From contig JAHIVS010000575.1 of NCBI GenBank assembly GCA_018816605.1, positions 1-11,401 on the forward strand: a DNA stretch of 11,401 nucleotides, read 5' to 3'. The position numbers and the translations under genes were made by a program. The stretch's first letter is position 1, and every line of letters starts with the position of its first letter. The DNA comes from Pseudomonadota bacterium (GTDB lineage: Bacteria; Desulfobacterota; Desulfobacteria; Desulfobacterales; Desulfobacteraceae). Shown one piece after another: positions 1-11,401 of the stretch. Below the pieces are notes generated by a model. That model was not told where the DNA came from, did not search any database, and was given only the letters and a program-made list of their open reading frames with translations.

Positions 1-492
1 AAGGATCCGGGCAGCCTCACCAAAATACTGATCCCAGCAGATCAGCGCCCCGATCCGGGCATACCGGGTGGTCCAGACCTGAAAACCGGTATCTCCGGGG
101 GTGAAATAAAATTTTTCATGATACCCCGGCGCATCGGGAATATGTGATTTTCTATATTTTCCAAGGATCTTGCCGTCCGCGTCGATCATGGCCACGGTAT
201 TAAAAAAGGCGGTGGGGGTTTTCTCAAAAAAGCTGATCGGAAGCACCACCTCAAGTTCCCGGGCCACATCCTGGAAATGCCCCACGGCCCTGTTTTCTTC
301 CAGGGTGGATGCAAGCTCATAAAATTCATATTTTTTTTCCTGGCAGAAATAGAGGGTTTCGAAAAGCTCGGGCAGCAGGATAATGCGGGCGCCTTTGTCT
401 GCTGCATCCCGGACCAGCCGGTCCGCTTTTTTGATGTTGTCTTCCGTGTTTTTGGAACAGGCCATCTGGATGGCGGCGATTTTCAGAGCCAT
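1..492 (-). CDS. aguB: N-carbamoylputrescine amidase, C-terminus beyond left edge
   Basis: Carbon-nitrogen hydrolase (nitrilase superfamily) expected to hydrolyse N-carbamoylputrescine to putrescine, CO2 and ammonia in the cytoplasm. The first 164 codons are present out of the usual 290-300. The catalytic triad is visible: Glu42 in LLPELFE, Lys115 in GKYRKSHIPD and Cys152 in ALICWDQYFGEAAR. The stretches ELFETLYFCQ, RKSHIPDAPGY and EKFYFTPGDTGF match plant and bacterial AguB very closely, which argues against a generic nitrilase or beta-ureidopropionase. The ATG at 492 is preceded by AAGGAG with a 6-base spacer. The gene follows the aminotransferase by 34 bases in the same direction with no terminator between, so it is taken as part of the operon. 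Agmatine deiminase, which would make its substrate, is not in the window. Confidence 0.93.
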   Translation of the reverse strand, partial: MALKIAAIQMACSKNTEDNIKKADRLVRDAADKGARIILLPELFETLYFCQEKKYEFYELASTLEENRAVGHFQDVARELEVVLPISFFEKTPTAFFNTVAMIDADGKILGKYRKSHIPDAPGYHEKFYFTPGDTGFQVWTTRYARIGALICWDQYFGEAARIL

Positions 493-526
493 TTTTTTCT
501 CCTTATTTTGTCTGTGAATGGGAGGA

Positions 527-1906
527 TTATCGGGTTAATCCCTGGTTCTCGGCGCAGGGCTTAAGCATCTCCAGGGTTTCTTCAAAGACCCGGATGACAT
601 GGTCGATTTCAACTTCCGTCGTGGGAGTGCTCAATGCGCAACCTCCCCGGGCATAGATGCACACCCCGCGGTTCAGAAGCTCAAGATTCAAAAGGGTGGC
701 CATGTTTCCGGAACCGATCTGGCCGATCATGGCATCCATGCCGGTAACAATGGGTGCGTCGGTCCAGTGAATGCCGAGGACCGATCCGTACCCGGTGGCC
801 TGCCCCCTGATTCCGGTTTTTTGAAAGGCGTGGCTGATCCCGACTCTGAGCCGGTCGCCCAGGGCATTGAGCCGGGAGGCGGCGGCTGAATCATATTTTT
901 TCATGGCCGCAAGCCCGGCCGCCATCACAATATTGGCACCGGTAAAGGTGCCGGAATGGGATATGCATTGCCCCTCCGGCAGATTCGGGTCCACCAGGGC
1001 CATGATATCCTTCCGGCCCCCGAACGCTCCAATGGCGAATCCACCGCCGATAATCTTGCCGATGGTGGTCAAATCCGGCTTCACCCCGGCCAGGGACTGG
1101 AATCCGCCTTCGGCAAAGCGCAGCGATACGATTTCATCAAAAATCAGGAGGGCTTCATATTGATCCGCAAGCCTTCGGCATCCTTCCAGAAACCCGGGGG
1201 CCGGGGGGATCACGCCCCCGGTGCCCAGCACCGGCTCCACAATAAGCGCGGCAATCTGCCCCTTGTGTGACGTTAAGGCAAGTTCAACCGATGGAAGGTC
1301 ATTGAATCGGGCAAAGACCACGTTTTCCCTCGTGCTTTCCGGAATTCCGGGGTTTTCCGGGATCCCCAGGGGCAGGCCCCGGTCGTCGCAGTCCGGTCCG
1401 GCATACCATTCCACAGCATCATGGGACCCGTGGAATCCGAAATCCATTTTGATGAATTTGGGTTTTTGGGTGAACGCCCGGGCCAGCCGGATGGCATAGA
1501 AGGTGGCTTCCGTACCGGAATTGGCAAACCTGATTTGGTCCATGGACTCAATGCGACTGCATAAGAGTTCTGCAAAATCGGTCTGAAGCCGCGAGGGTGC
1601 CGTTAGAATGGTCCCCTTTTGAAGCTGTTCGCCTGCGGCCGCAGTGATGTCTGCATCGTTATGCCCGTGAAGAATGGCGGTATAATCGTTCAAAAGATCC
1701 AGATATTTATTGCCGTCATAATCATAGAGCCAGCATCCCCCCCCTTTTTCCATAAAGGTGGGATAGGGATAAAGATGGGCAATATTCCGGGTCACGCCGC
1801 CCGGGAAAACCTTTTTGGCCCGCTCGTGAAGGATCTTTGAGATCCCTGTTCCGGCCTCATAACGGGCCAGTATCTGTTTTTCCATTTCCAATGCCTTTGT
1901 GTTCAT
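527..1906 (-). CDS. class-III PLP aminotransferase (GSAM-like fold)
   Basis: PLP-dependent class-III aminotransferase of 459 residues, resembling glutamate-1-semialdehyde aminomutase but probably not HemL. Numbered from the chosen start, visible motifs are NSGTEA (about 129-134, cofactor phosphate binding), FHG (about 158-160), FDEI with Asp257 (contacts the pyridine nitrogen), and TTIGKIIGGG with the Schiff-base Lys284. HemL normally has an SGGEA-type motif and FDEVMTGFR; here they read SGTEA and FDEIVSLR, so another amine or amino acid is the likely substrate. Two starts are possible. ATG 1915 overlaps the AOR stop as ATGA but has AAAGG directly against it. ATG 1906 has AGGA 8 bases upstream, leaves a 5-base gap and is preferred. 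In context it may convert the amine released by the ureohydrolase or amidase to an aldehyde for the AOR; that role is inferred. Confidence 0.9.
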   Translation of the reverse strand: MNTKALEMEKQILARYEAGTGISKILHERAKKVFPGGVTRNIAHLYPYPTFMEKGGGCWLYDYDGNKYLDLLNDYTAILHGHNDADITAAAGEQLQKGTILTAPSRLQTDFAELLCSRIESMDQIRFANSGTEATFYAIRLARAFTQKPKFIKMDFGFHGSHDAVEWYAGPDCDDRGLPLGIPENPGIPESTRENVVFARFNDLPSVELALTSHKGQIAALIVEPVLGTGGVIPPAPGFLEGCRRLADQYEALLIFDEIVSLRFAEGGFQSLAGVKPDLTTIGKIIGGGFAIGAFGGRKDIMALVDPNLPEGQCISHSGTFTGANIVMAAGLAAMKKYDSAAASRLNALGDRLRVGISHAFQKTGIRGQATGYGSVLGIHWTDAPIVTGMDAMIGQIGSGNMATLLNLELLNRGVCIYARGGCALSTPTTEVEIDHVIRVFEETLEMLKPCAENQGLTR

Positions 1907-1911
1907 GATCT

Positions 1912-3876
1912 TCATCCTTTCTTTTCAGGGTTATTTTGTTGGTCCGGGGCCAGTTTCCCCAGCCGCTCCAGCTCGTCTGCCACCTCACCCATGGACAACG
2001 CTTCAAGTTTTTCCCGTGTCTGGAATCCGGTTTCAGTATCCATGCCGCGGGCCTTGTAAAAACGCTCTTTAAGCGATTCAAACCGGTCTTTGTAGATCCA
2101 TGCGGTATAATAAAAATCCCCGTGCTGGGCATCCATCCATTCGGTATCGAAAAAACCGTCGGCCAGGGTATCGGTCTTCCGGGACCGGTTTTCCCGTTTC
2201 ACCATAACCGCCCGGCGCAGGTTCCATATCTGCTCGCCCGATTTCCAAAGGGCGTCCGGGTCCTTTTCCACACCCGTGACCGCTGAAAAGGCCCGGCTCT
2301 GAAAAATGCGGATATCCATTTCAGGCGGATGAAACAAGAGATCCGGCAAAGAGGCGAAATTGCACATGGGCAATGAATTTTTCAGGCTCTGGTTGTGCTG
2401 AACCCAGATGGTCTGATGTTCGATACCGTCATAGGCGGTTTCGGACGTTCCGGTTTCCGGATCTGCATAGGTTTTGATGCCGCACGGTACCTTGAAATGG
2501 TTTTCCAGGTCCTGGAGGGGAATGGGATGCTCGCCTTCCCGGTTGAAAGACAGGTACCCGTCCGTGGAATCCCCGGCCTCACGGCTGTCCAGGGCCATGT
2601 GCAGACTAAGCCCCATCCATCCGTAATAATGGTTGAAATATCCCCAGGCCGGAAACCGGATATCAATGATCCGCCGGAAGTCCTCTTTGGCCGATACGGT
2701 TTCCGAAATTTTCAGAAGGGCTCGGAGTGCTCCGTCTGCAAACGGTTCCCTGCCCTGGGCAATCCCCTGCAGAAGCCGGTCCACACATTCATATTCGCTG
2801 AGCTCTCCCCTGAAATTGACGGGCAGCGGAAAACCGGCCGCCATCCATTCCTCCGGGCTGACGATATCATTTCCAATGGTTTCAAATACCGTAAACACGA
2901 GGCCCAAAAGGTCAAAATGGTTGATCCCGAGCCTTTGTGCATCGTGCAGCGCCTTAAAGGCCACCCGCTCGTCCTGGCTGAAAAATCCATACCACCAGGA
3001 GGCGCACATACCCGCACCCTTGCCGATTCCCGGGACATCGTAAAATCCCATGCACTGGAATGGACAACCATAGGGGCCGGTGGTTTTCTTCCGGTACTTG
3101 GACACCATCCGTTTGGCAAAATCCCCTTCAAGAATGGGCCCACGGCCGAATCTCTGGAAGGCGCCGGTTGAGAATTCTCCTTTGGATTTTGCATAGGCGA
3201 TCAGGGATTCAAAATCCCCGGGCCGGGCAATGGAGACCTTTCCGGATCCTGAGATGCAGACCGCCTTGAGGTTTTTGGACCCCATCACGGCTCCGAACCC
3301 GCCCTGGCCGGCCGTACTGCCCGTATCGGTGCCGATAACGGCGATCCGGCTCAGGTTTTCGCCGGCCTGCCCAATCGTGAGAACGGACATATCCGGGTTT
3401 CTGTCTTTGATCACCCGCTGGGTTTCGATCAGATCCAGCCCCCAGAGGTCCGTTGCATCGGCGATCTCTACCCTGTCATCCCGGATGGACAGATAAACCG
3501 GCGTATCCGCCCGGCCAAGGATCACGATGGCGTCATATCCGGCATATTTCATCCGGGAGGGAAACACGCCGCCGAACCCGGAATAGGCAAAATACTCCCC
3601 CGGGTGGCTCTGGGGAGCGATCCCGGCGATCTCTGCCCGGTTGAACTGCCCCGGAAGCCCGGTCAGCGGGCCCACGGCGATCATCAGGGGGCTCTTGGGA
3701 TCAAAGGCGCCGACATCGGGACACCCCATATCCCAGAATATTTTGGTGCACAGGCCGACGCCGCCGATATATGTCTCCGGCGCATAATGGGATGTCGGAA
3801 TGATGGTGGTTGTTCGGGCGGAAAGATCCACATTCAGAATCTTGCCGGCCCATCCGGAGAATGCCTTGGAAGTCAT
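1912..3876 (-). CDS. tungsten-type aldehyde:ferredoxin oxidoreductase family protein, divergent
   Basis: AOR-family catalytic subunit, 654 residues (family usually about 600-620), expected to carry a tungsto-bispterin and one [4Fe-4S] cluster and to oxidise an aldehyde to its acid. The N-terminal domain matches Pyrococcus AOR closely: GPLTGLPG, MKYAGYDAIVILGRA, IGQAGENLSRIAVIG and GGFGAVMGSKNLKAV. The C-terminal SLPMCNF segment (Cys505) matches the SLGVC-type fourth cluster ligand. The usual CxxCxxxC motif reads PYGCPFQC: Cys271 and Cys275 are kept but the first position is Pro268. An extra Cys291 lies 16 residues past Cys275. ATG 3876 overlaps the ferredoxin stop as ATGA. An in-frame upstream extension to 3984 runs inside the ferredoxin gene and lacks family similarity, so it was rejected. 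Family membership is secure; substrate and cluster ligation are open. Confidence 0.92.
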   Translation of the reverse strand: MTSKAFSGWAGKILNVDLSARTTTIIPTSHYAPETYIGGVGLCTKIFWDMGCPDVGAFDPKSPLMIAVGPLTGLPGQFNRAEIAGIAPQSHPGEYFAYSGFGGVFPSRMKYAGYDAIVILGRADTPVYLSIRDDRVEIADATDLWGLDLIETQRVIKDRNPDMSVLTIGQAGENLSRIAVIGTDTGSTAGQGGFGAVMGSKNLKAVCISGSGKVSIARPGDFESLIAYAKSKGEFSTGAFQRFGRGPILEGDFAKRMVSKYRKKTTGPYGCPFQCMGFYDVPGIGKGAGMCASWWYGFFSQDERVAFKALHDAQRLGINHFDLLGLVFTVFETIGNDIVSPEEWMAAGFPLPVNFRGELSEYECVDRLLQGIAQGREPFADGALRALLKISETVSAKEDFRRIIDIRFPAWGYFNHYYGWMGLSLHMALDSREAGDSTDGYLSFNREGEHPIPLQDLENHFKVPCGIKTYADPETGTSETAYDGIEHQTIWVQHNQSLKNSLPMCNFASLPDLLFHPPEMDIRIFQSRAFSAVTGVEKDPDALWKSGEQIWNLRRAVMVKRENRSRKTDTLADGFFDTEWMDAQHGDFYYTAWIYKDRFESLKERFYKARGMDTETGFQTREKLEALSMGEVADELERLGKLAPDQQNNPEKKG

Positions 3877-4361
3877 TTTTTCTGTTTTTTCCTGTCTTTT
3901 TGATGATGTTGGATGGATAGGGCACCACTCGGGCAATAGGACACACAAATGGGGCTGCCGGATTCCGCTTCGCAGAGGTCGCATTTGAAGGCCTTGCGTT
4001 TTTCCGCATTAAACCCGACGGCCGGGGGCGTCAAAGGACACGCTTGCATGCATTCCCGGCACCCTTGGCAGGCGGCCTCGTCAATCCGGATGATTCCTGT
4101 TTCCGGAGTGATCCGCATGGCCTGCCCCGGATAGGGACAGGCGGCATAACAGCTGGGTGCCAGGCATTGCCGGCAGACGCTGACCTGATATTCGGCCGAA
4201 AGCGCATCCCCCAGGATCCGTATCCGGGCTGCTGCCGGTCCTCCGGTTCCTTCACGGTGCAGAGCGCACATCAGCTCGCATATCCCGCATCCGGTGCAGG
4301 CTGCAGGATCGAAACAAAGTGTGCGCGGCCTGTTTTTAAACATTGGCCTGCGATCCATCAT
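3873..4361 (-). CDS. ferredoxin-type electron-transfer subunit with four [4Fe-4S] motifs
   Basis: Iron-sulfur protein of 162 residues with sixteen cysteines in four groups: 22/25/28/32, 63/66/71/75, 98/101/104/108 and 127/130/139/143. This is the HycB/DmsB-like layout that also occurs in the polyferredoxin subunit (AorA) of the Aromatoleum aldehyde oxidoreductase complex. There is no signal peptide, twin-arginine motif or membrane segment, so it should be cytoplasmic. It sits directly before the AOR gene (ATGA overlap), so it is very likely the electron-accepting partner of that enzyme. The start is one of two adjacent ATGs (4361 or 4358); 4361 overlaps the ureohydrolase stop as ATGA. A longer frame to 4403 lies within the ureohydrolase gene and begins before any conserved segment. 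The tail is lysine-rich (QKDRKKQKK). Confidence 0.93.
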   Translation of the reverse strand: MMDRRPMFKNRPRTLCFDPAACTGCGICELMCALHREGTGGPAAARIRILGDALSAEYQVSVCRQCLAPSCYAACPYPGQAMRITPETGIIRIDEAACQGCRECMQACPLTPPAVGFNAEKRKAFKCDLCEAESGSPICVSYCPSGALSIQHHQKDRKKQKK

Positions 4362-5407
4362 GACCGCTTCTTTCCATGGGCCACAGACTCGGCCAGGACA
4401 CACAGGATTTCAAACATGATCTGGGCAGCCAGCCGCGCCGTTACGCCGGAGACGTCATAGGGCGGGGACACTTCCATGACATCACCGCCCACCAAGGAAA
4501 GCCCGCTCAGCCCGCGGATGATTTTCTGGACGTCCCGGGGCCGTAACCCCCCGATTTCAGGCTCGCCGGTACCGGGTGCATAGGCCGGATCAAATACATC
4601 CACATCCACGGTAATATAGGTGGGTCCGTCGCCCACGGTTTCCCGTATGGTCTCAAGAATCCGGTCCGGGCCAAGATCAAAGCATTCTTCGGCATGGATC
4701 ATTTTGATGCCCGCGTCCCTGGCAAAATCCCAGAAGATTTCGCACCGGCCCCGGATGCCGATCTGGATGGTCCGGTCCGGGTCCACAAATCCGTTCAGGA
4801 CGGCATTGCGAACCGGCGTGGCATTATAATAGAGGCTTCCGCCGTATTCTCCGGTGGTATCGGAATGGGCGTCAAAATGAATCAGTCCCAGGGGGCGGTC
4901 CGCACCCAGCGCCTTGAGGATGGGGTAGGTGGCCGAATGGTCACCGCCGATGGAAAGGGGCACGACGCCCGCCGACTTTACCTGGCGGTAATGGGTATAA
5001 ATCTCTTCGATCATGCTGTCCAGGGAGTAGAGATGTGTGAAATAAATATCACCGGCATCTGCCACCCTGCAGAGATCAAATGGAATGATCCCGCTGACGT
5101 GATGCATGGGGCCTGCGGCCAGATCCGAATGCTCACGCACCGATCTCGGCCCGAAACGGGCACCTGGCCGGTCCACAACCCCCAGGTCGATGGGGATGCC
5201 GATCAGGGCGATGTCGCATTGGGACAGATCCGGGTTATAGGGGGTTTTTAAAAAGGTCGGCATTCCGGAATAGCTCTGAACCAGATGCTTGAAATTATTT
5301 TCCATGAGCATTCGTTCAAAAAAATTTACAATTTCAGGGTTTTCAAATTCCAGTGGTGACCGGTCACTATATTTCTTTTTCAATTCTTCAATTCGGCTCT
5401 GTTTCAT
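4358..5407 (-). CDS. ureohydrolase, agmatinase-like (arginase superfamily)
   Basis: Binuclear metal ureohydrolase of 349 residues, expected to release urea from a guanidino compound such as agmatine. All six metal ligands are visible: His157 in GGDHS, Asp179, His181 and Asp183 in HFDAHSD, and Asp268 and Asp270 in VDVDVFDP. PGARFGPRSVRE and VMEVSPPYD are further family signatures. Two oddities stand out. There are about 40 extra N-terminal residues compared with E. coli SpeB. The segment FDHGTMF of SpeB reads YYNATPV here, so the conserved His becomes Asn195. Agmatine is therefore plausible but guanidinobutyrate, another guanidino acid or guanidine itself cannot be excluded. ATG 5407 has GGAGGA 6 bases upstream. 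It is the first gene of the operon and lies about 52 bases downstream of the predicted sigma-54 transcription start. Confidence 0.9.
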   Translation of the reverse strand: MKQSRIEELKKKYSDRSPLEFENPEIVNFFERMLMENNFKHLVQSYSGMPTFLKTPYNPDLSQCDIALIGIPIDLGVVDRPGARFGPRSVREHSDLAAGPMHHVSGIIPFDLCRVADAGDIYFTHLYSLDSMIEEIYTHYRQVKSAGVVPLSIGGDHSATYPILKALGADRPLGLIHFDAHSDTTGEYGGSLYYNATPVRNAVLNGFVDPDRTIQIGIRGRCEIFWDFARDAGIKMIHAEECFDLGPDRILETIRETVGDGPTYITVDVDVFDPAYAPGTGEPEIGGLRPRDVQKIIRGLSGLSLVGGDVMEVSPPYDVSGVTARLAAQIMFEILCVLAESVAHGKKRS

Positions 5408-5469
5408 TTCAATTCCTCCGTTAACAGTCTGTCATTTCGAATCCGAACGATCCTTTGGATAAGGGATAG

Positions 5470-5485
5470 AGCAGAATCCGTGCCA
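5470..5485 (-). promoter_or_regulatory. sigma-54 (-24/-12) promoter of the ureohydrolase operon
   Basis: Read on the minus strand the site is TGGCACGGATTCTGCT. Against the consensus TGGCACG-N4-TTGCT it has one mismatch, and the GG and GC doublets are 10 bases apart as required. The predicted start is near 5459, giving a leader of about 52 bases to the ATG at 5407. The divergent neighbour encodes a sigma-54 activator, which supports the call. Confidence 0.82.
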
Positions 5486-5541
5486 TGGGCCTGCCAAAGA
5501 AATAGAGGTTTAAATTCAGTTAGTTAAAATCAGAAAAGAAA

Positions 5542-5593
5542 AAAATTGTGATAAAACACAAATATCTTCGCTTTATTTAACAAAATTGTGATA
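5542..5593. promoter_or_regulatory. putative activator binding region (repeated TTGTGATA elements)
   Basis: The 12-mer AAAATTGTGATA occurs at 5542-5553 and again at 5582-5593, exactly 40 bases apart (about four helical turns). The first copy is part of a perfect inverted repeat, TTGTG-N6-CACAA (5546-5561). The second overlaps AACAA-N10-TTGTT (5579-5598). The sites lie roughly 85-135 bases upstream of the predicted sigma-54 start, a normal distance for an enhancer-binding activator, and just before the regulator gene, which would allow autoregulation. An A/G-rich tract (5531-5545) may be bent. Function is inferred from position and symmetry. Confidence 0.5.
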
Positions 5594-5613
5594 TTGTTGT
5601 TTCATTTAACAAA
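5575..5613. repeat. direct repeat ATTTAACAAA, two copies
   Basis: ATTTAACAAA occurs at 5575-5584 and 5604-5613, 29 bases apart, flanking the second TTGTGATA copy. The region is AT-rich, so chance is possible. It may belong to the same operator or to the regulator's own promoter; no convincing -35/-10 pair was found for the regulator. Confidence 0.35.
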
Positions 5614-5636
5614 TTTTCCCAAGAAGGGAAGACGCC

Positions 5637-7238
5637 TTGACAAACCCGATAAATGAAAATCAGTTCTTTCAGAAAGCCGTTTCCTGCCTGTGCGAGAACC
5701 TCAGTATTGAAACCGCCTTCATTCATCTGATGGCACACCTGCGCCGGCATATGCCCGCGGACATTCTGTTTCTGGAGCTTCTGGATTTGGAGACCCTTGC
5801 GCTCATCACCATTGCGGCCGCGGACGACGGAAAAAGCGTTCGGCCGGATCTGGTGACCTATATCCCGAAAGATCTGTTCAGAAGATCCTACAGGCGGCTG
5901 AAAGACGAAGGTCAACAGATCCAGGTCTTCAACCGCCTTGACATGAAAACCGATTTCAAGGACGATCTGTTCTGGCCGGAAAGAAAGGACCAGTCCTTTA
6001 TCGTGGTCGACCTGGATATCCTGGAAGACGGCAAGCGTGCGGTATTCATCATTCAGGCATTCGGCTGGGACAAATTCAATGATTCCCATACCCGTCTCAT
6101 ATCCCTGCTGTACCATCCCGTCAGAATGGCCGCTTTCAGCGCCGTCCGCCAATACCGGATATCTCTTCTGGGGAAAATGCTGGCGGAAAGAAGTGCGGCG
6201 TATCCCGACGAGGCTTTGTTTTCCCGGCTCGGCCTTGAGATCATCGGATCCAACACCGGTCTCAAGGATGTCATGAGACAGGTCCGGCAAGTGGCTTCCG
6301 TGGACAGCCCGGTATTGATACTGGGCGAAACCGGGGTGGGAAAGGAACTGGTCGCCAATGCCATCCATCAGCTTTCCGGGCGAAGCAGCGGTCCCTTTAT
6401 CAAGGTCAATGCCGGCGCCATACCGGATACTTTGATCGACAGCGAATTGTTCGGCCATGAAAAAGGGGCGTTTACCGGTGCCCTGACACAGAAAAAAGGA
6501 CGTTTTGAACGGGCCCACACCGGCACCCTTTTTCTGGATGAGATTGGAGAACTCCCCCTGCATGCCCAGGTCCGGATGTTGAGGGTTCTGCAAAACCGTA
6601 TCATTGAAAGGGTGGGGGGGGCAGCCCCCATTTTTGTGGATGTGAGAGTCCTCAGTGCGACCAACCGGAACCTTACGGATATGATCCGCCGGAACGCCTT
6701 TCGGGAGGATCTCTTTTACCGCCTGAACGTTTTTCCCATCATCATTCCACCGCTTCGTCACCGAAGCCAGGATATCCCCTCTTTGGTGCAGTATTTTGTC
6801 AAACAGAAATGCATCAAGCTGAAAATCCAGAAAGAGCCAACTATAAGGGCTGAAGACATCAGGGTCTTAAAGGAGTACCCGTGGCCGGGAAACATCCGGG
6901 AACTGGAAAACCTCATCGAAAGATCCCTGATCCATATGAAGGGCAAAGAAGATTTCAGATACCTGAAACTGGAAGAACTGACCCGCTCTCAGGATTCTGG
7001 CCCGGCGGTTTTCACTTCCGTCTCAACCACTGCAGTGTCTTCTTCCATGGACGAAATCCTGAAAGATCATATCGCAGCAACCCTGGCTCTGACCAGGGGA
7101 AAAATTCACGGGAAAAATGGCGCGGCGGAAAAACTCGGCATGAACCCCAACACGCTGAGGAGCCGGATGAGAAAGCTCGGTATTCCGTTTAAAAAAGATG
7201 GCTGGACCCCAAAAAACAAAGCCGGCGCTTCATACTGA
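5637..7238 (+). CDS. sigma-54-dependent transcriptional activator (GAF-like/AAA+/Fis HTH)
   Basis: Enhancer-binding activator of 533 residues. Residues 1 to about 190 form a GAF-like sensory domain with no receiver-type phosphoacceptor, so it probably responds to a ligand rather than to a kinase. The AAA+ domain has Walker A GETGVGK (230-236), the sigma-54 contact loop GAFTGA (277-282), Walker B FLDE (299-302) and an intact RREDLFYRLN-like segment (here REDLFYRLN). A Fis-type helix-turn-helix lies at about 478-520 (GAAEKLGMNPNTLRSRMRKL). The start is TTG at 5637, with GAAGGGAAG about 5 bases upstream; there is no usable ATG until well inside the sensory domain. It is transcribed divergently from the ureohydrolase operon, whose promoter is sigma-54 type, so it is almost certainly that operon's regulator. 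The inducing ligand is unknown. Confidence 0.93.
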   Translation: MTNPINENQFFQKAVSCLCENLSIETAFIHLMAHLRRHMPADILFLELLDLETLALITIAAADDGKSVRPDLVTYIPKDLFRRSYRRLKDEGQQIQVFNRLDMKTDFKDDLFWPERKDQSFIVVDLDILEDGKRAVFIIQAFGWDKFNDSHTRLISLLYHPVRMAAFSAVRQYRISLLGKMLAERSAAYPDEALFSRLGLEIIGSNTGLKDVMRQVRQVASVDSPVLILGETGVGKELVANAIHQLSGRSSGPFIKVNAGAIPDTLIDSELFGHEKGAFTGALTQKKGRFERAHTGTLFLDEIGELPLHAQVRMLRVLQNRIIERVGGAAPIFVDVRVLSATNRNLTDMIRRNAFREDLFYRLNVFPIIIPPLRHRSQDIPSLVQYFVKQKCIKLKIQKEPTIRAEDIRVLKEYPWPGNIRELENLIERSLIHMKGKEDFRYLKLEELTRSQDSGPAVFTSVSTTAVSSSMDEILKDHIAATLALTRGKIHGKNGAAEKLGMNPNTLRSRMRKLGIPFKKDGWTPKNKAGASY

Positions 7239-7259
7239 CAGGCGTTCTTTCCATTCATA

Positions 7260-7454
7260 TCACTCTGAAGCTTTGGAGGACACCTGACAACCATCCAGCC
7301 CTTCACGGACGGCCTTAAAGAGCTCGGTACCGGTGATCGGGTTCTGAATAAATTTCCTGATTCCGGCATTCAGGGCCTCCTGCCGGGAAAAGTTCTCATG
7401 ATATCTTGTACAGATCATCACCGGAAAATCGGCCCCAAAACCCTTGAAAAACCA
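7260..7454 (-). pseudogene. remnant: C-terminal end of a response-regulator receiver domain
   Basis: The minus strand reads ADFPVMICTRYHENFSRQ, then EALNAGIRKFIQNPITG and TELFKAVREGL before a TGA stop. This follows the last third of a receiver domain, like the terminal receiver of hybrid kinases (DIPVILCTGYS...GI..F..KP...L...IR..L). The first two thirds, including the phosphorylated Asp, are absent; the frame is closed by TAA at 7455-7457. Two conserved residues are altered: CTG to CTR and the near-invariant KP to NP. No start codon or ribosome site fits. It is best read as a decaying fragment, not a gene. Confidence 0.6.
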
Positions 7455-7513
7455 TTATATAATGCCCTACCACATAATATTAATATCAAATAGTGATAAT
7501 CATTTTATCCCAT

Positions 7514-7690
7514 TTAAGTTGAAAAAAATTCAAGTTCCCCAGGGGGATTTGAAAATAAATTTTAAAAATACATCTCTTCATCCAGAACCCGGAGCCGTTT
7601 TTCGGCTTGTCTGGCAAGAGCCTCCAATTCTGGAACCCGTGCACCCTCATATAATTGTTTTATCTTTTTCCCTTTAAAGTTCTGTATCAT
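7514..7690 (-). pseudogene. remnant: HigB-like (RelE/ParE family) toxin gene
   Basis: From an ATG at 7690 the minus strand encodes MIQNFKGKKIKQLYEG, continuing through LEALARQAEKRLRVLDEE, to a TAA at 7562-7564 (42 residues). The beginning (MIxxFKxKxxxxLf) and the ARQAxKRLRVLDxA segment are typical of the first half of HigB-type mRNA-interferase toxins of about 92 residues. After the TAA the same frame continues NLFSNPPGELEFFS, resembling the family's PPGNRLEALK segment, before another stop at 7514-7516. The catalytic C-terminal half and any HigA antitoxin gene are missing and there is no ribosome site. This reads as a toxin gene inactivated by stop codons and deletion. Confidence 0.6.
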
Positions 7691-7734
7691 GATATAGGTG
7701 GAAGACCTTCCGCTGGTTTTAATTATTTTCCGCT

Positions 7735-7763
7735 TTGTAAAAAGTACAAACAAGGGTTACAAT
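7735..7763 (+). promoter_or_regulatory. sigma-70-like promoter of the SLC13 permease
   Basis: TTGTAA (7735-7740) and TACAAT (7758-7763) are separated by 17 bases, matching the consensus hexamers at 4 of 6 and 5 of 6 positions. Transcription would begin near 7770, which rules out permease starts upstream of that and fits the ATG at 7814. Confidence 0.5.
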
Positions 7764-7813
7764 GGCAGTTGCTTTTCATGGACACAATGATAATTTTTTC
7801 CGGGGTTGAAGCG

Positions 7814-9604
7814 ATGTTTGGGATTGATCTGCACATTATTTGGGTTTCTCTGATTCTTGTTGTCACATTGTTTTTGCTGGTAACAGAAAAAATATCCGTC
7901 GACAAAACCGCCATGGGCATTATGGTGGTTCTTTCATTAACCGGGATCCTGACCCCCAAAGAAGCGGTAGGCGGGTTTGCAAACCCGGCCGTGATCACCG
8001 TTGGCGCCATGTTTCTTTTAAGCCATGGCCTTATCCGCACCGGGGCTGTCGGTTTTGTAACCGAGCTTTTGCTGCACTTTTCAAAGGCAAATAAAACATA
8101 TGCCTATATTCTGATTCTGACAAGTGTGGCCCTGGCCTCTGCATTTATCAACAACACACCGGTTGTTGTCTTGTTTATCCCCATTGTCATGGGACTGAGC
8201 TGTGAATGCGATTTTTCCCCTTCAAAACTTTTGATTCCTTTGTCCTATGTGTCCATACTGGCCGGAACCTGCACCTTGATCGGGACGTCCACCAACATTA
8301 TTGTCAGTGATCTTTCTGCCCTGGCCGGATATGACCCCCTCTCCATGTTTGAACTGGGGAAAATCGGCGTTCCCATTGCTGTTTTGGGCATAATTTTCCT
8401 TTTTTTTGTCTCCCCGAAACTTTTGCCCGGACGAACAGCTCCGGTCTGTGAACTGGAGGGAGAAAAACAAAACAAATACATAGCAGAACTGATTGTCCCG
8501 GTGAACAGTTCCCTGATTGGGAATGGGGATATTATCGAATTTGCCCAGGAGCGTTTTGGATTAAATGTAATTGAGGTCTTTCGAAACGGAAATATTTTTG
8601 ATCCGGCCCGGACCAGGATATCGGTAAAACAGGAGGACATCCTTCTGGTAAAAGGGTCTGCGGAAGATCTGGTTTCTGTCTTGAAAACACAGATCCTGGA
8701 GCTTGCCCATGGCGAGGAAGGCATGGCCTTTGGCGGCGGACTAAAAGACGACCTGATCGTTGAACTGATTGTTCCGCCATTGTCAACGCTCCTAAGGGAA
8801 CCGCTTTTGTCTACGGACCTGAAAGATGATTCAGACATTCAGATTATTGCCATACGAAGCCGCCGCCATCACTATTCCTATCGGAAAATACAAAGTGTCA
8901 AACTCAAAATCGGTGATATCATCCTGGTCCGCTGCCCCCGGAATAAGCTTTCAAAGATCCGCAAAAGCACTGATTTTGTTATTATTGAAGATATCCATCA
9001 CGCCTTGATCGACAGGGAAAAGGCCAGGCTTGCCGTGGGTATTTTCGCCATGGTCGTGCTTGCCGCCACCTTTGGGGTGGCAGATATCATGGTCTGCTCC
9101 TTAACCGGTGTCTTTTTAATGACACTCACCCATTGCTTAAGCCTAAAAGATGCCTACCGATCTCTGCAATCGGAAGTGCTGCTCCTGATCATCGGAACCA
9201 TCGCCCTGGGCGTTGCCATGCAAAAAACAGGTGCGACAAAAGTGTATGCTGATTTTTTCCTGTCTTTTTTTGAAGGCACGGGCCCACATCCTGTCCTGGT
9301 CGGTATCATTCTTCTTTCCAGCATCTGTACCCATATTTTAAGCAATAATGCCACGGCTGTGCTGCTGCTTCCCATTGCCGTATCAACGGCTGTTTCCCTT
9401 GGGGTTGATCCCAAACCCTTTATCGTTGGTATCTGTTTTGGTGCCAGTGCCTGTTTTGCAACGCCCATCGGGTACCAGACCAATCTGCTGGTGTATGTCC
9501 CGGGGGGATACCGGTTTTCCGATTATTTCAAACTGGGAATGCTGTTGAACCTGATCGTCATCTTTCTTGCCGCGGTGCTGATTCCCCTGGCCTGGCCATT
9601 TTAA
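7814..9604 (+). CDS. SLC13/DASS-family permease with two RCK_C domains
   Basis: Inner-membrane permease of 596 residues, of the Na+-coupled anion (carboxylate or sulfate) type. The first half carries hydrophobic helices with NNTP (113-116) and GTSTN (157-161). The second half repeats the motifs as SNNATA (510-515) and TPIGYQTN (550-557). Between them are two soluble TrkA_C/RCK_C domains, about 220-285 and 312-380, probably regulatory ligand-binding modules. This arrangement is common in bacterial SLC13 permeases of this length. The frame is open back to 7655, but that extension overlaps the HigB remnant and is not hydrophobic. ATG 7814 was chosen because GGGG lies 8 bases upstream and the promoter is at 7735-7763; ATG 7787 is an alternative. 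Substrate is unknown; sulfate or a dicarboxylate would suit a sulfate reducer. Its 3' end overlaps the opposing kinase-like gene by 47 bases. Confidence 0.88.
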   Translation: MFGIDLHIIWVSLILVVTLFLLVTEKISVDKTAMGIMVVLSLTGILTPKEAVGGFANPAVITVGAMFLLSHGLIRTGAVGFVTELLLHFSKANKTYAYILILTSVALASAFINNTPVVVLFIPIVMGLSCECDFSPSKLLIPLSYVSILAGTCTLIGTSTNIIVSDLSALAGYDPLSMFELGKIGVPIAVLGIIFLFFVSPKLLPGRTAPVCELEGEKQNKYIAELIVPVNSSLIGNGDIIEFAQERFGLNVIEVFRNGNIFDPARTRISVKQEDILLVKGSAEDLVSVLKTQILELAHGEEGMAFGGGLKDDLIVELIVPPLSTLLREPLLSTDLKDDSDIQIIAIRSRRHHYSYRKIQSVKLKIGDIILVRCPRNKLSKIRKSTDFVIIEDIHHALIDREKARLAVGIFAMVVLAATFGVADIMVCSLTGVFLMTLTHCLSLKDAYRSLQSEVLLLIIGTIALGVAMQKTGATKVYADFFLSFFEGTGPHPVLVGIILLSSICTHILSNNATAVLLLPIAVSTAVSLGVDPKPFIVGICFGASACFATPIGYQTNLLVYVPGGYRFSDYFKLGMLLNLIVIFLAAVLIPLAWPF

Positions 9605-10715
9605 TATTTGTGTTTGATGCTTTGACCAAATCCACAATTTTTTCTGTGAGATAATCTTTTGTTTCGTATCTTGAAATTTCCATCAGTTTTTTGGTGATAT
9701 TTGACAATCTGTCCAGTTGGGCCTGGATTTTAACAATTTTTGAATAAAAGGGGCTGTCCTGGGAAATATCCATCAGAATAAGATCAAAATATCCCTGAAT
9801 GCTCATTAACGGCTGGTTCATTTCATGGCAAACCGCACCGGACAATTCAAGGACCCCCTGCAATCTGTCTTTTTCCCTGATCACCGCTTCTGATGATTTT
9901 CTTACGCTAACATCGGTCAATACGGAAATTTTCAAGTCCTTGGTAAACGTTGATCGGAATTCTATATGCTTTGTCCGGCCATTTTTACAGCAAATCTTAA
10001 ATTCACGATCCTTTGCACCGGCTGACCCCTTGCTGTCTGCATTCCATGTTTCAAAGACCATCCTGCGATATGTTTCGTCCGGATATACCTTTTTAAACCA
10101 CTCGTCTTTGGTGGAGATCTCCTTGAGCGTATATCCGGTTATTTTTGTAAAATATGGGTTTACATAGAGATATTTACCATGACCGTCAATCAAGGCAATG
10201 CCATGGGGGGTGCTTTCCAGAATTGTCGAAAGCGTTTCTTTTTCTTTTTGATGGAAGGCTTCCATCTGCCTGCGATGGGTGATATCCCTCAAAATAACAT
10301 GAAGTATCGGCATGCCGCCCAGATAATAAATCCGTGTTAGCAGAACCTCTGTGGGAAAAACCTCTCCATTTGCCCGAATGTGATTCCATTCAAATAAATG
10401 ACTGCCCTTTTCCAAGGCAAGGGCCATCATTTCTTTTGCTTTTTCAAAGGAATTTTGGCCGTCCGGCTGGGTGTCCGGCGATATTTGTGACGGATGAAGT
10501 TTAACGAGTTCATTTTTTTTATAGCCCAGCAGATCTGCTGCTGCCGGATTGCAGTCGACAAATCTCCCCTCTTCAAGTATCATGATCGCATCTTTGGATT
10601 TTTCGAACAGAAGACGATACTTTGCATTATCGGTGGACTCAGCATTTTGTTCTGCAGCTTTCTCTAATGCGTTAATCCTGTTTTCCAACTCTTCATAGGT
10701 TTGTTTTTTTACCAA
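9558..10715 (-). CDS. PAS-PAS-HisKA sensor protein without ATPase domain
   Basis: Sensor protein of 385 residues: a short N-terminal coiled coil (KKQTYEELENRINALEKA), PAS domain 1 (about 33-149, FVDCNPAAADLLGY), PAS domain 2 (about 161-272, YVNPYFTKITGYT), and a HisKA dimerisation domain with phospho-accepting His297 in CHEMNQPL. The protein then stops about 88 residues after that histidine, with no N, G1 or G2 boxes of an HATPase_c domain, and there is no room for one because the opposing permease gene lies beyond. The last 16 or so residues are encoded opposite the permease's 3' end and look unrelated to HisKA. It is either a truncated kinase or a natural HisKA-only protein that needs a partner kinase. 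The TTG start at 10715 is supported by GGAGG 5 bases upstream and restores the family's usual N-terminus. There are no membrane segments. Confidence 0.85.
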   Translation of the reverse strand: MVKKQTYEELENRINALEKAAEQNAESTDNAKYRLLFEKSKDAIMILEEGRFVDCNPAAADLLGYKKNELVKLHPSQISPDTQPDGQNSFEKAKEMMALALEKGSHLFEWNHIRANGEVFPTEVLLTRIYYLGGMPILHVILRDITHRRQMEAFHQKEKETLSTILESTPHGIALIDGHGKYLYVNPYFTKITGYTLKEISTKDEWFKKVYPDETYRRMVFETWNADSKGSAGAKDREFKICCKNGRTKHIEFRSTFTKDLKISVLTDVSVRKSSEAVIREKDRLQGVLELSGAVCHEMNQPLMSIQGYFDLILMDISQDSPFYSKIVKIQAQLDRLSNITKKLMEISRYETKDYLTEKIVDLVKASNTNIKMARPGESAPRQER

Positions 10716-10720
10716 TACAA

Positions 10721-10725
10721 CCTCC
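10721..10725 (-). promoter_or_regulatory. ribosome binding site setting the TTG start of the PAS sensor gene
   Basis: Minus-strand GGAGG is followed by TTGTA and then TTG GTA AAA AAA CAA. The spacing is ideal and selects the TTG at 10715 over the longer open frame that begins at 10778, whose extra 21 residues show no family similarity. Confidence 0.7.
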
Positions 10726-10769
10726 ACCTGGGAAACAAAGAACTTCAGCAAACTTTGATGGACAAAAGA

Positions 10770-10798
10770 ACCATACAAAATCTGGCAGCAACAGGCAA
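10770..10798 (-). promoter_or_regulatory. weak sigma-70-like promoter for the PAS sensor gene
   Basis: On the minus strand TTGCCT (10798-10793) and TATGGT (10775-10770) are spaced by 17 bases, each matching consensus at 4 of 6 positions. It lies between the upstream terminator and the TTG start. The match is modest and could be chance. Confidence 0.25.
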
Positions 10799-10843
10799 AT
10801 TATATTTGGGATCTGAAAAATGATGTCGGCCGATCCATAAACA

Positions 10844-10876
10844 AAAAAGGCAATGCCATGGGAGCATTGCCTTTTT
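10844..10876 (-). terminator. rho-independent terminator, possibly bidirectional
   Basis: A perfect 13-base inverted repeat (AAAAAGGCAATGC / GCATTGCCTTTTT) with a 7-base loop, followed on the minus strand by a T-rich tract (TTTTTTGTTT). It starts 24 bases past the stop of the PEP-CTERM gene and should end that transcript before the PAS sensor gene. The A/T arms would also permit termination on the plus strand. Confidence 0.88.
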
Positions 10877-10899
10877 GTTTTGTATTCTAGAAAAAAGCC

Positions 10900-11401
10900 C
10901 TATTTGCCCCCGCGTCTCCTGGCAATTCCGGCCAACCCCAAAAGGCCTATGCCCAGAAGGGCCATGGTGGCCGGTTCCGGCACGGGATTCATTTCTCCGC
11001 CGATTACGTCATTGGCGCAATAGGGGGAAAAGGCGATAAAGGCACCGCCGGACAGATCGATTTCAAGGCCTGCAAAGCTGTAGGAATAAACGTATCGGCT
11101 TGTGTTTTTCCAGTTACTGCCGGCACTCCATGCCGTCAGAAAATTGCTGTCAATACCATTGGGGGAATTCTGGCGATGGGTGGTGCTGGTTCCGTTGGTC
11201 ATGGTATAGGTATACCCTTGGGCCACCTGCCAGATACCGTTGCCGGGAATACTTCCAATGGTATTCCAGCCATTGAAGGACCCGCCGTCATGGACCAGAA
11301 AATCCCAGTCATCCCACTGGGTATTCTGGGACCCCATGGCGTAGGAATTGATAAACAGGGAGTTAAAATTCTGCCAGCCATTGGAGTCATGCAAAACAAT
11401 G
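10900..11401 (-). CDS. PEP-CTERM sorting-domain secreted protein, N-terminus beyond right edge
   Basis: The last 166 or so codons of an exported protein; the frame stays open to the right edge, so the start and the expected signal peptide are outside. The C-terminus is a classic PEP-CTERM exosortase signal: VPEPAT, a hydrophobic helix (MALLGIGLLGLAGI), then a basic cluster ARRRGGK and the TAG stop. Such proteins are cleaved and sorted to the outer surface or exopolysaccharide matrix by an exosortase (EpsH/XrtA), not encoded here. The visible ectodomain is rich in Asn, Ser, Gly, Trp and Tyr, as is usual for surface proteins, and has a segment FSPYCANDVIGGE just before the sorting motif. I do not recognise a catalytic or binding domain. 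It is followed by a strong terminator, so it ends its own transcript. Confidence 0.9.
   Translation of the reverse strand, partial: IVLHDSNGWQNFNSLFINSYAMGSQNTQWDDWDFLVHDGGSFNGWNTIGSIPGNGIWQVAQGYTYTMTNGTSTTHRQNSPNGIDSNFLTAWSAGSNWKNTSRYVYSYSFAGLEIDLSGGAFIAFSPYCANDVIGGEMNPVPEPATMALLGIGLLGLAGIARRRGGK

Follow-up and report, generated by a model that had tools for sequence, protein, structure and literature searches.

The window analysed here is an 11,401-nucleotide stretch of DNA from a Pseudomonadota bacterium assigned to the Desulfobacteraceae (contig JAHIVS010000575.1, positions 1 to 11,401 of the forward strand). It contains a run of five genes on the minus strand. Read from position 5407, these encode an arginase-family ureohydrolase resembling the 3-guanidinopropionase GpuA (4358-5407, 349 amino acids, Pfam assignment), a four-cluster iron-sulfur protein of the WorS/AorA small-subunit type (3873-4361, identified by its Cys positions and Protein Data Bank (PDB) matches), a catalytic subunit of the aldehyde oxidoreductase/tungsten oxidoreductase (AOR/WOR) family, called WorL below (1912-3876, 654 amino acids, PF02730 and PF01314), a class-III aminotransferase (527-1915, 462 amino acids, PF00202) and an AguB-like CN hydrolase (1-492, 164 amino acids, cut by the window edge). 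A first reading of this DNA, made from the letters alone (hereafter the sequence-only reading), had placed five same-strand genes here, and the positions of the open reading frames (ORFs) agree with the Pfam assignments in confirming them. The WorL ORF of 690 residues is over-long; a start at 3876, overlapping the preceding gene, gives the 654-residue protein. Adjacent genes overlap by 4 bases (ATGA) at three of the operon junctions; at the fourth, a 34-base gap holds a ribosome-binding-site-like stretch. Apart from the amidase end at the window edge, the five reading frames are uninterrupted throughout.

A sigma-54 (-24/-12) promoter-like site, TGGCACGGATTCTGCT, was detected by pattern match on the minus strand at 5485-5470, 78 bases upstream of the ureohydrolase start codon. 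It is one base off the pattern TGGCAC-N5-TTGCW, and the string TGGCAC-N6-TGC occurs once in the window against 0.10 expected. The promoter call is weakened by the count obtained when two mismatches are allowed (4 sites found, 6 expected); thus, the site rests on its position as much as on its letters. On the plus strand, a divergent gene (5637-7238) encodes a sigma-54-dependent activator with an AAA+ domain (PF00158, 232.2 bits) and a Fis-type helix-turn-helix (PF02954, scoring barely over its cut-off in Pfam). No relative of this activator was found at threshold in the 2 genomes covered. Between the promoter-like site and the activator gene lies a palindrome, TTGTG-N6-CACAA (5546-5561, no strand), detected by motif scan. 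With one mismatch allowed, one was found against 0.37 expected, and at least one appeared in 66 of 200 shuffles, so that it is weak on its own as a candidate activator-binding site. A -24/-12 site and a dedicated activator are thus both present as sequence features. Together with the ATGA overlaps, they bear out the earlier proposal of a single operon under sigma-54 control: the five genes likely form one operon, and their co-transcription is predicted.

The WorL protein carries both AFOR domains, at 199.4 bits for the N-terminal PF02730 and 80.9 bits for the C-terminal PF01314. Its residue Cys291 is invariant (38/38 aligned relatives) and shares an alignment column with Cys336 of Escherichia coli YdhV and with Cys322 of BamB, from class II benzoyl-CoA reductase; Cys322 stands in this column in 3/3 BamB-like proteins. 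The YdhV residue is C364 in the 728-amino-acid ORF used, which corresponds to residue 336 for a protein of 700 amino acids. The criterion applied for a classical AOR was the catalytic or second-shell Glu313 of PfAOR, and no Glu is present at WorL residues 285-297; depending on the alignment, Glu313 falls on Ser293, Cys291 or Ala292. At the other second-shell places (Thr243, Tyr427 and His448), the CsWOR87-type residues align with Arg245, Tyr417 and Asp436, the C-terminal alignment being weak. Cys288 of PfAOR, with which the classical AOR cluster motif begins, aligns with a Pro (WorL residue 268), and the remaining three cluster Cys are retained. In its available text, PMC12096430 ties a Cys metal ligand to YdhV and BamB, both without the second-shell residues.

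The phylogeny also sets WorL apart. In the tree that includes BamB, a split supported at 100/99 puts AOR sensu stricto and BamB on one side and YdhV, the window clade and most remaining rows on the other; WorL, which groups neither with YdhV nor with BamB, falls in a separate clade of its own (100/100). In the tree without BamB, YdhV stood beside the AOR-type group with support of 88/78, which does not reach the trust threshold, and the AOR-type group was again separate from the window clade. On close kinship with YdhV, which was considered, the two trees disagree. Fold comparison does not discriminate AOR from BamB for WorL. From its sequence, WorL is a Cys-type protein outside AOR sensu stricto, and Cys291 is a candidate metal ligand. 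The claim that this subunit oxidizes an aldehyde, as the sequence-only reading had it, thereby loses its main support: a Cys occupies the YdhV/BamB ligand position, the catalytic Glu is absent and the window clade stands apart from AOR sensu stricto.

Several known systems can be compared with the WorS-WorL pair. YdhV/YdhY and CsWOR41 of Cetobacterium (class V WOR, clade 41) share with it both subunits and the Cys ligand position. The Cetobacterium protein taken to be CsWOR41 is Cys-type by alignment. CsWOR41 has been expressed in Eubacterium limosum, and the text available of PMC13328260 reports no activity of CsWOR41 with the 46 aldehydes tried. In contrast to both systems, the window holds no membrane subunits, its neighbouring genes are catabolic, and no twin-arginine translocation (Tat) motif was seen in its WorS, although WorS was detected at 11 of the 14 loci nearest the window (L001-L014) and carries a Tat motif in 7 of these 11. 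BamB shares the Cys column and likewise has no AOR-type Glu, but it sits with the aldehyde-oxidoreductase rows in the split described above, and the families found in the window suggest no other bam genes. Finally, Aromatoleum AorABC and the AOR complex 9mqx also combine a four-cluster small subunit with a catalytic subunit; the window differs from them in holding no NAD subunit and in the absence of the active-site Glu.

The Cys at the YdhV/BamB ligand position was observed in 96 of 101 rows overall, including many uncharacterised AOR-family proteins of Chloroflexota, archaea and Actinomycetota (L015-L080). The available part of PMC12096430 states that this Cys is absent outside BamB and YdhV; by alignment, the Cys-type position is spread wider than that text states. 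FdhD sulfurtransferase genes lie near WorS-WorL in L003 and L007 (2 of the 80 loci compared below, both within the 14 nearest), and another lies near the Cetobacterium Cys-type gene.

In WorS, 16 of the 17 Cys fall into four groups of four, corresponding to four [4Fe-4S] cluster motifs, and its best PDB matches are 9mqx_E and 8c0z_C, the iron-sulfur subunits of AOR complexes. These matches identify what had been called a four-cluster ferredoxin as the small subunit of the supposed AOR; a free ferredoxin was rejected, as the protein matches the small-subunit type of AOR complexes. No gene for an NAD subunit is among the families found in the window. As described in the accessible portion of PMC13328260, class II WORs consist of WorL and WorS, with ferredoxin as carrier. 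Among the genes within the window, the pair has this make-up (WorL and WorS, with neither an NAD subunit nor a Tat motif), and ferredoxin is accordingly a predicted carrier, the class II resemblance following from the lack of an NAD subunit.

The ureohydrolase has an arginase fold with intact metal-ligand motifs and catalytic Glu. Its proton-shuttle His (His163 in E. coli) is replaced by Asn195 in the motif YYNATP, whereas this His is present in 119/119 listed relatives and 8/8 other homologues. The closest solved structure, by sequence and by fold, is GpuA; Tyr188 occupies the position of GpuA Tyr157, which takes part in substrate recognition, and the Pseudomonas enzyme differs from that of the window in keeping the shuttle His. 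The agmatinase model TIGR01230 was passed (184.8 bits, cut-off 174.3). This model speaks for the conversion of agmatine to putrescine proposed earlier, but the kinship with GpuA and the missing His weaken that proposal. Pairs of ureohydrolase genes about 4 kb apart were seen in three sampled genomes (L110 and L115, L111 and L113, L112 and L114), and ABC-transporter-like genes, judged by eye, lie near these paired genes (L110-L115).

The amidase, truncated at the window edge, scored 258.2 bits over 162/279 positions of TIGR03381, the N-carbamoylputrescine amidase model, whose cut-off is 410. Its best PDB match was the Medicago N-carbamoylputrescine amidohydrolase 5h8i (190.8 bits over 160 residues), ahead of 6mg6, an unspecified CN hydrolase (120.7 bits), and 3ivz, an entry named nitrilase or beta-ureidopropionase (100.0 bits). 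With the Medicago active-site residues taken from the available text of PMC4812014, the catalytic triad Glu48, Lys121 and Cys158 is retained, as are Glu132, Gln161, Tyr54, Pro125, Tyr130 and Trp159, a total of 9 of the 10 residues checked; the exception is Trp162, replaced by Tyr. The specificity residue Glu187, described there as binding the distal amine, falls past the window edge. PDB match and active-site residues thus fit an enzyme acting on N-carbamoylputrescine, in line with the earlier AguB assignment.

The aminotransferase is GSAM-like and, in a list showing 25 of 69 families, scored below the HemL model cut-offs. Its best PDB match is the Sphaerobacter omega-transaminase 6k8h (316.9 bits), which according to the accessible text of PMC10589169 acts on beta- and gamma-amino acids and whose Arg36 might bind the carboxylate. 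Compared with 6k8h by sequence, the window enzyme shares this Arg as Arg43; Arg43 and the pyridoxal phosphate Lys287 are both found in 121/121 rows. A class-III aminotransferase is therefore present as first proposed, but putrescine is doubtful as its substrate, since the nearest solved relative takes beta- and gamma-amino acids. Among the 7 regions examined around aminotransferase relatives, 2 hold genes for beta-keto-acid cleavage enzymes and in 1 the transaminase is immediately followed by a CN hydrolase, 41% identical to the window amidase; ureohydrolase and WorS-WorL are absent from all 7.

Conservation of the gene set was assessed at 80 AOR-anchored loci, being 80 of 491 confirmed stretches among the matches listed (27-49% identity). 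Of these, 57 span at least 10 kb; the other 23 are shorter, so that absence from them is weak. Neither the ureohydrolase nor the amidase was found at any of the 80 loci, and the aminotransferase was found at one (L046), as two distant copies. WorS occurred at 54 loci, within 3.5 kb of WorL at 53, and WorS-WorL is the sole recurring part of the gene set. Closer AOR relatives, of up to 60% identity, and one 96% copy have gene contexts outside the loci compared.

Sampled genomes were consistent with this picture. Among 395 genomes from the phylum of a Desulfobacula metagenome-assembled genome (MAG), the AOR was detected in 3 (E <= 1e-140), the aminotransferase in 6 (E <= 1e-90) and the ureohydrolase in 5 (E <= 1e-50). 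The three AOR genomes overlap with none of the aminotransferase or ureohydrolase genomes; one genome (G286) holds both of the latter, on separate contigs. At E <= 1e-150, the AOR was found in 1 of 68 genomes from the phylum of a Hydrogenedentota MAG, which was the centre genome itself, and in none of 298 from the class of an Anaerolineae MAG. The five-gene set was thus found neither among the 80 loci nor in the sampled genomes at these thresholds. No relative was encoded on the 94 stretches of viral contigs scanned, and a plasmid search with the window DNA gave no match. Text searches of the literature, combining AOR with agmatinase or with semialdehyde/beta-alanine terms, found no paper on an operon of this composition, in agreement with the earlier statement that no such operon was known to its author.

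Base composition changes along the window. The five operon genes and the activator have a GC content of 0.52-0.58 and a third-position GC content (GC3) of 0.61-0.66, against 0.47/0.52 for the flanking transporter gene and 0.42/0.44 for a histidine kinase gene, giving a step between 1-7238 and 7655-10778. Values return to 0.53/0.64 in the PEP-CTERM gene at the far end, so that import of the operon together with its activator is no more than a possibility.

In our preferred reading, to which we give somewhat less than an even chance, sigma-54 switches on a catabolic operon that serves a guanidino and/or carbamoyl (ureido) compound, and the active-site Cys and the missing catalytic Glu make ordinary aldehyde oxidation an improbable step for WorS-WorL. 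The two hydrolases would strip the guanidino or carbamoyl group and free an omega-amino compound, which would more likely be an amino acid resembling beta-alanine or gamma-aminobutyrate (GABA) than a diamine. Its conversion to an oxo compound would then fall to the transaminase, and WorS-WorL would act in the same pathway by exchanging low-potential electrons with ferredoxin. The substrate hints diverge, the amidase suggesting a C4 carbamoyl amine and the transaminase, like the kinship with GpuA, an amino acid. Conserved synteny was rejected as support: none of the 80 loci holds the five genes, and by the test set in the sequence-only reading the gene order is not conserved among them. Of the whole pathway, the redox step is both the least certain and the most interesting. 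The available texts of PMC12096430 and PMC13328260 leave the Cys-type members of the tungsten/molybdenum family other than BamB without an assigned reaction. If Cys291 binds the metal, WorL would be a cytoplasmic, apparently substrate-induced member of this set, and the neighbouring ureohydrolase, amidase and transaminase would narrow the candidate substrates of an orphan metalloenzyme branch to a short list. The name aldehyde ferredoxin oxidoreductase is not safe from domain hits alone.

The pathway first proposed led from agmatine or N-carbamoylputrescine through putrescine and 4-aminobutanal to GABA; in it, WorL would oxidize the aldehyde and pass the electrons to ferredoxin. The enzyme order suits such a passage from amine to aldehyde to acid; moreover, an AguB-type amidase with its triad and most Medicago residues is at hand, the ureohydrolase exceeds the agmatinase cut-off, and a WorS-WorL pair without NAD subunit resembles the ferredoxin-linked class II enzymes as far as these are described in the text available. 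However, WorL has the YdhV/BamB Cys instead of the catalytic Glu, GpuA is the solved structure closest to the ureohydrolase, which has lost the shuttle His, and the aminotransferase belongs to the beta/gamma-amino-acid group. Of that chain, the sequence supports the single operon with its sigma-54 control as well as two guanidino/carbamoyl-type hydrolases, an aminotransferase and an AOR/WOR enzyme; it does not support the aldehyde oxidation step, and the pathway as a whole appears unlikely. We consider equally unlikely a degradation of 3-guanidinopropionate or 4-guanidinobutyrate that would pass through beta-alanine or GABA and then malonate semialdehyde or succinate semialdehyde and end at the dicarboxylate, with WorL in place of an NAD-dependent semialdehyde dehydrogenase. 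Kinship with GpuA, Tyr188 and a transaminase of the 6k8h type favour this route, but it too meets the active-site evidence contrary to aldehyde oxidation; it leaves the amidase unexplained and shares the difficulty of the absent shuttle His.

The presence of both a ureohydrolase and an amidase in one operon would be explained as serial steps if the Cys-type WorS-WorL used low-potential electrons to reduce a ureide or guanidine that is unsaturated or ring-shaped. The Asn-bearing ureohydrolase would then open or deiminate the substrate to an N-carbamoyl compound, AguB would free the amine and the transaminase would deaminate it last. A beta-amino-acid transaminase fits this final step, the Cys ligand position is common to the reductase BamB, and a CN hydrolase adjoins one transaminase relative. 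Such a route would parallel reductive pyrimidine breakdown with a tungsten enzyme and, if true, would give Cys-type tungsten oxidoreductases a catabolic role besides that of BamB, within what the texts available describe. Its substrate is, however, conjectural, WorL does not group with BamB, and we know of no ring-opening by an arginase-fold enzyme. YdhV itself has no known reaction according to the accessible text of PMC12096430. This is the least probable of the explanations weighed here. It is also quite unlikely that the genes are packed together without forming one pathway, with a ureohydrolase that is in decay or has been put to some other use. The lack of a conserved five-gene set, the ureohydrolase active-site substitution and the composition step at one operon edge, which may mean import, speak for such a loose assembly; the three ATGA overlaps, the open frames, the single promoter site with its activator and the intact metal-ligand motifs of the ureohydrolase speak against it.

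Beyond the activator, a DASS/CitMHS-type transporter with a TrkA_C domain is encoded at 7655-9604. It is 76% identical to one of the Desulfobacula MAG, which has different neighbours. Since this match starts at residue 54-57, translation may in fact begin further downstream. A hairpin of 13-14 pairs at 10844-10876, with T runs on both strands, resembles a bidirectional terminator. It is followed by a PEP-CTERM protein gene (10900-11394) at the contig end.

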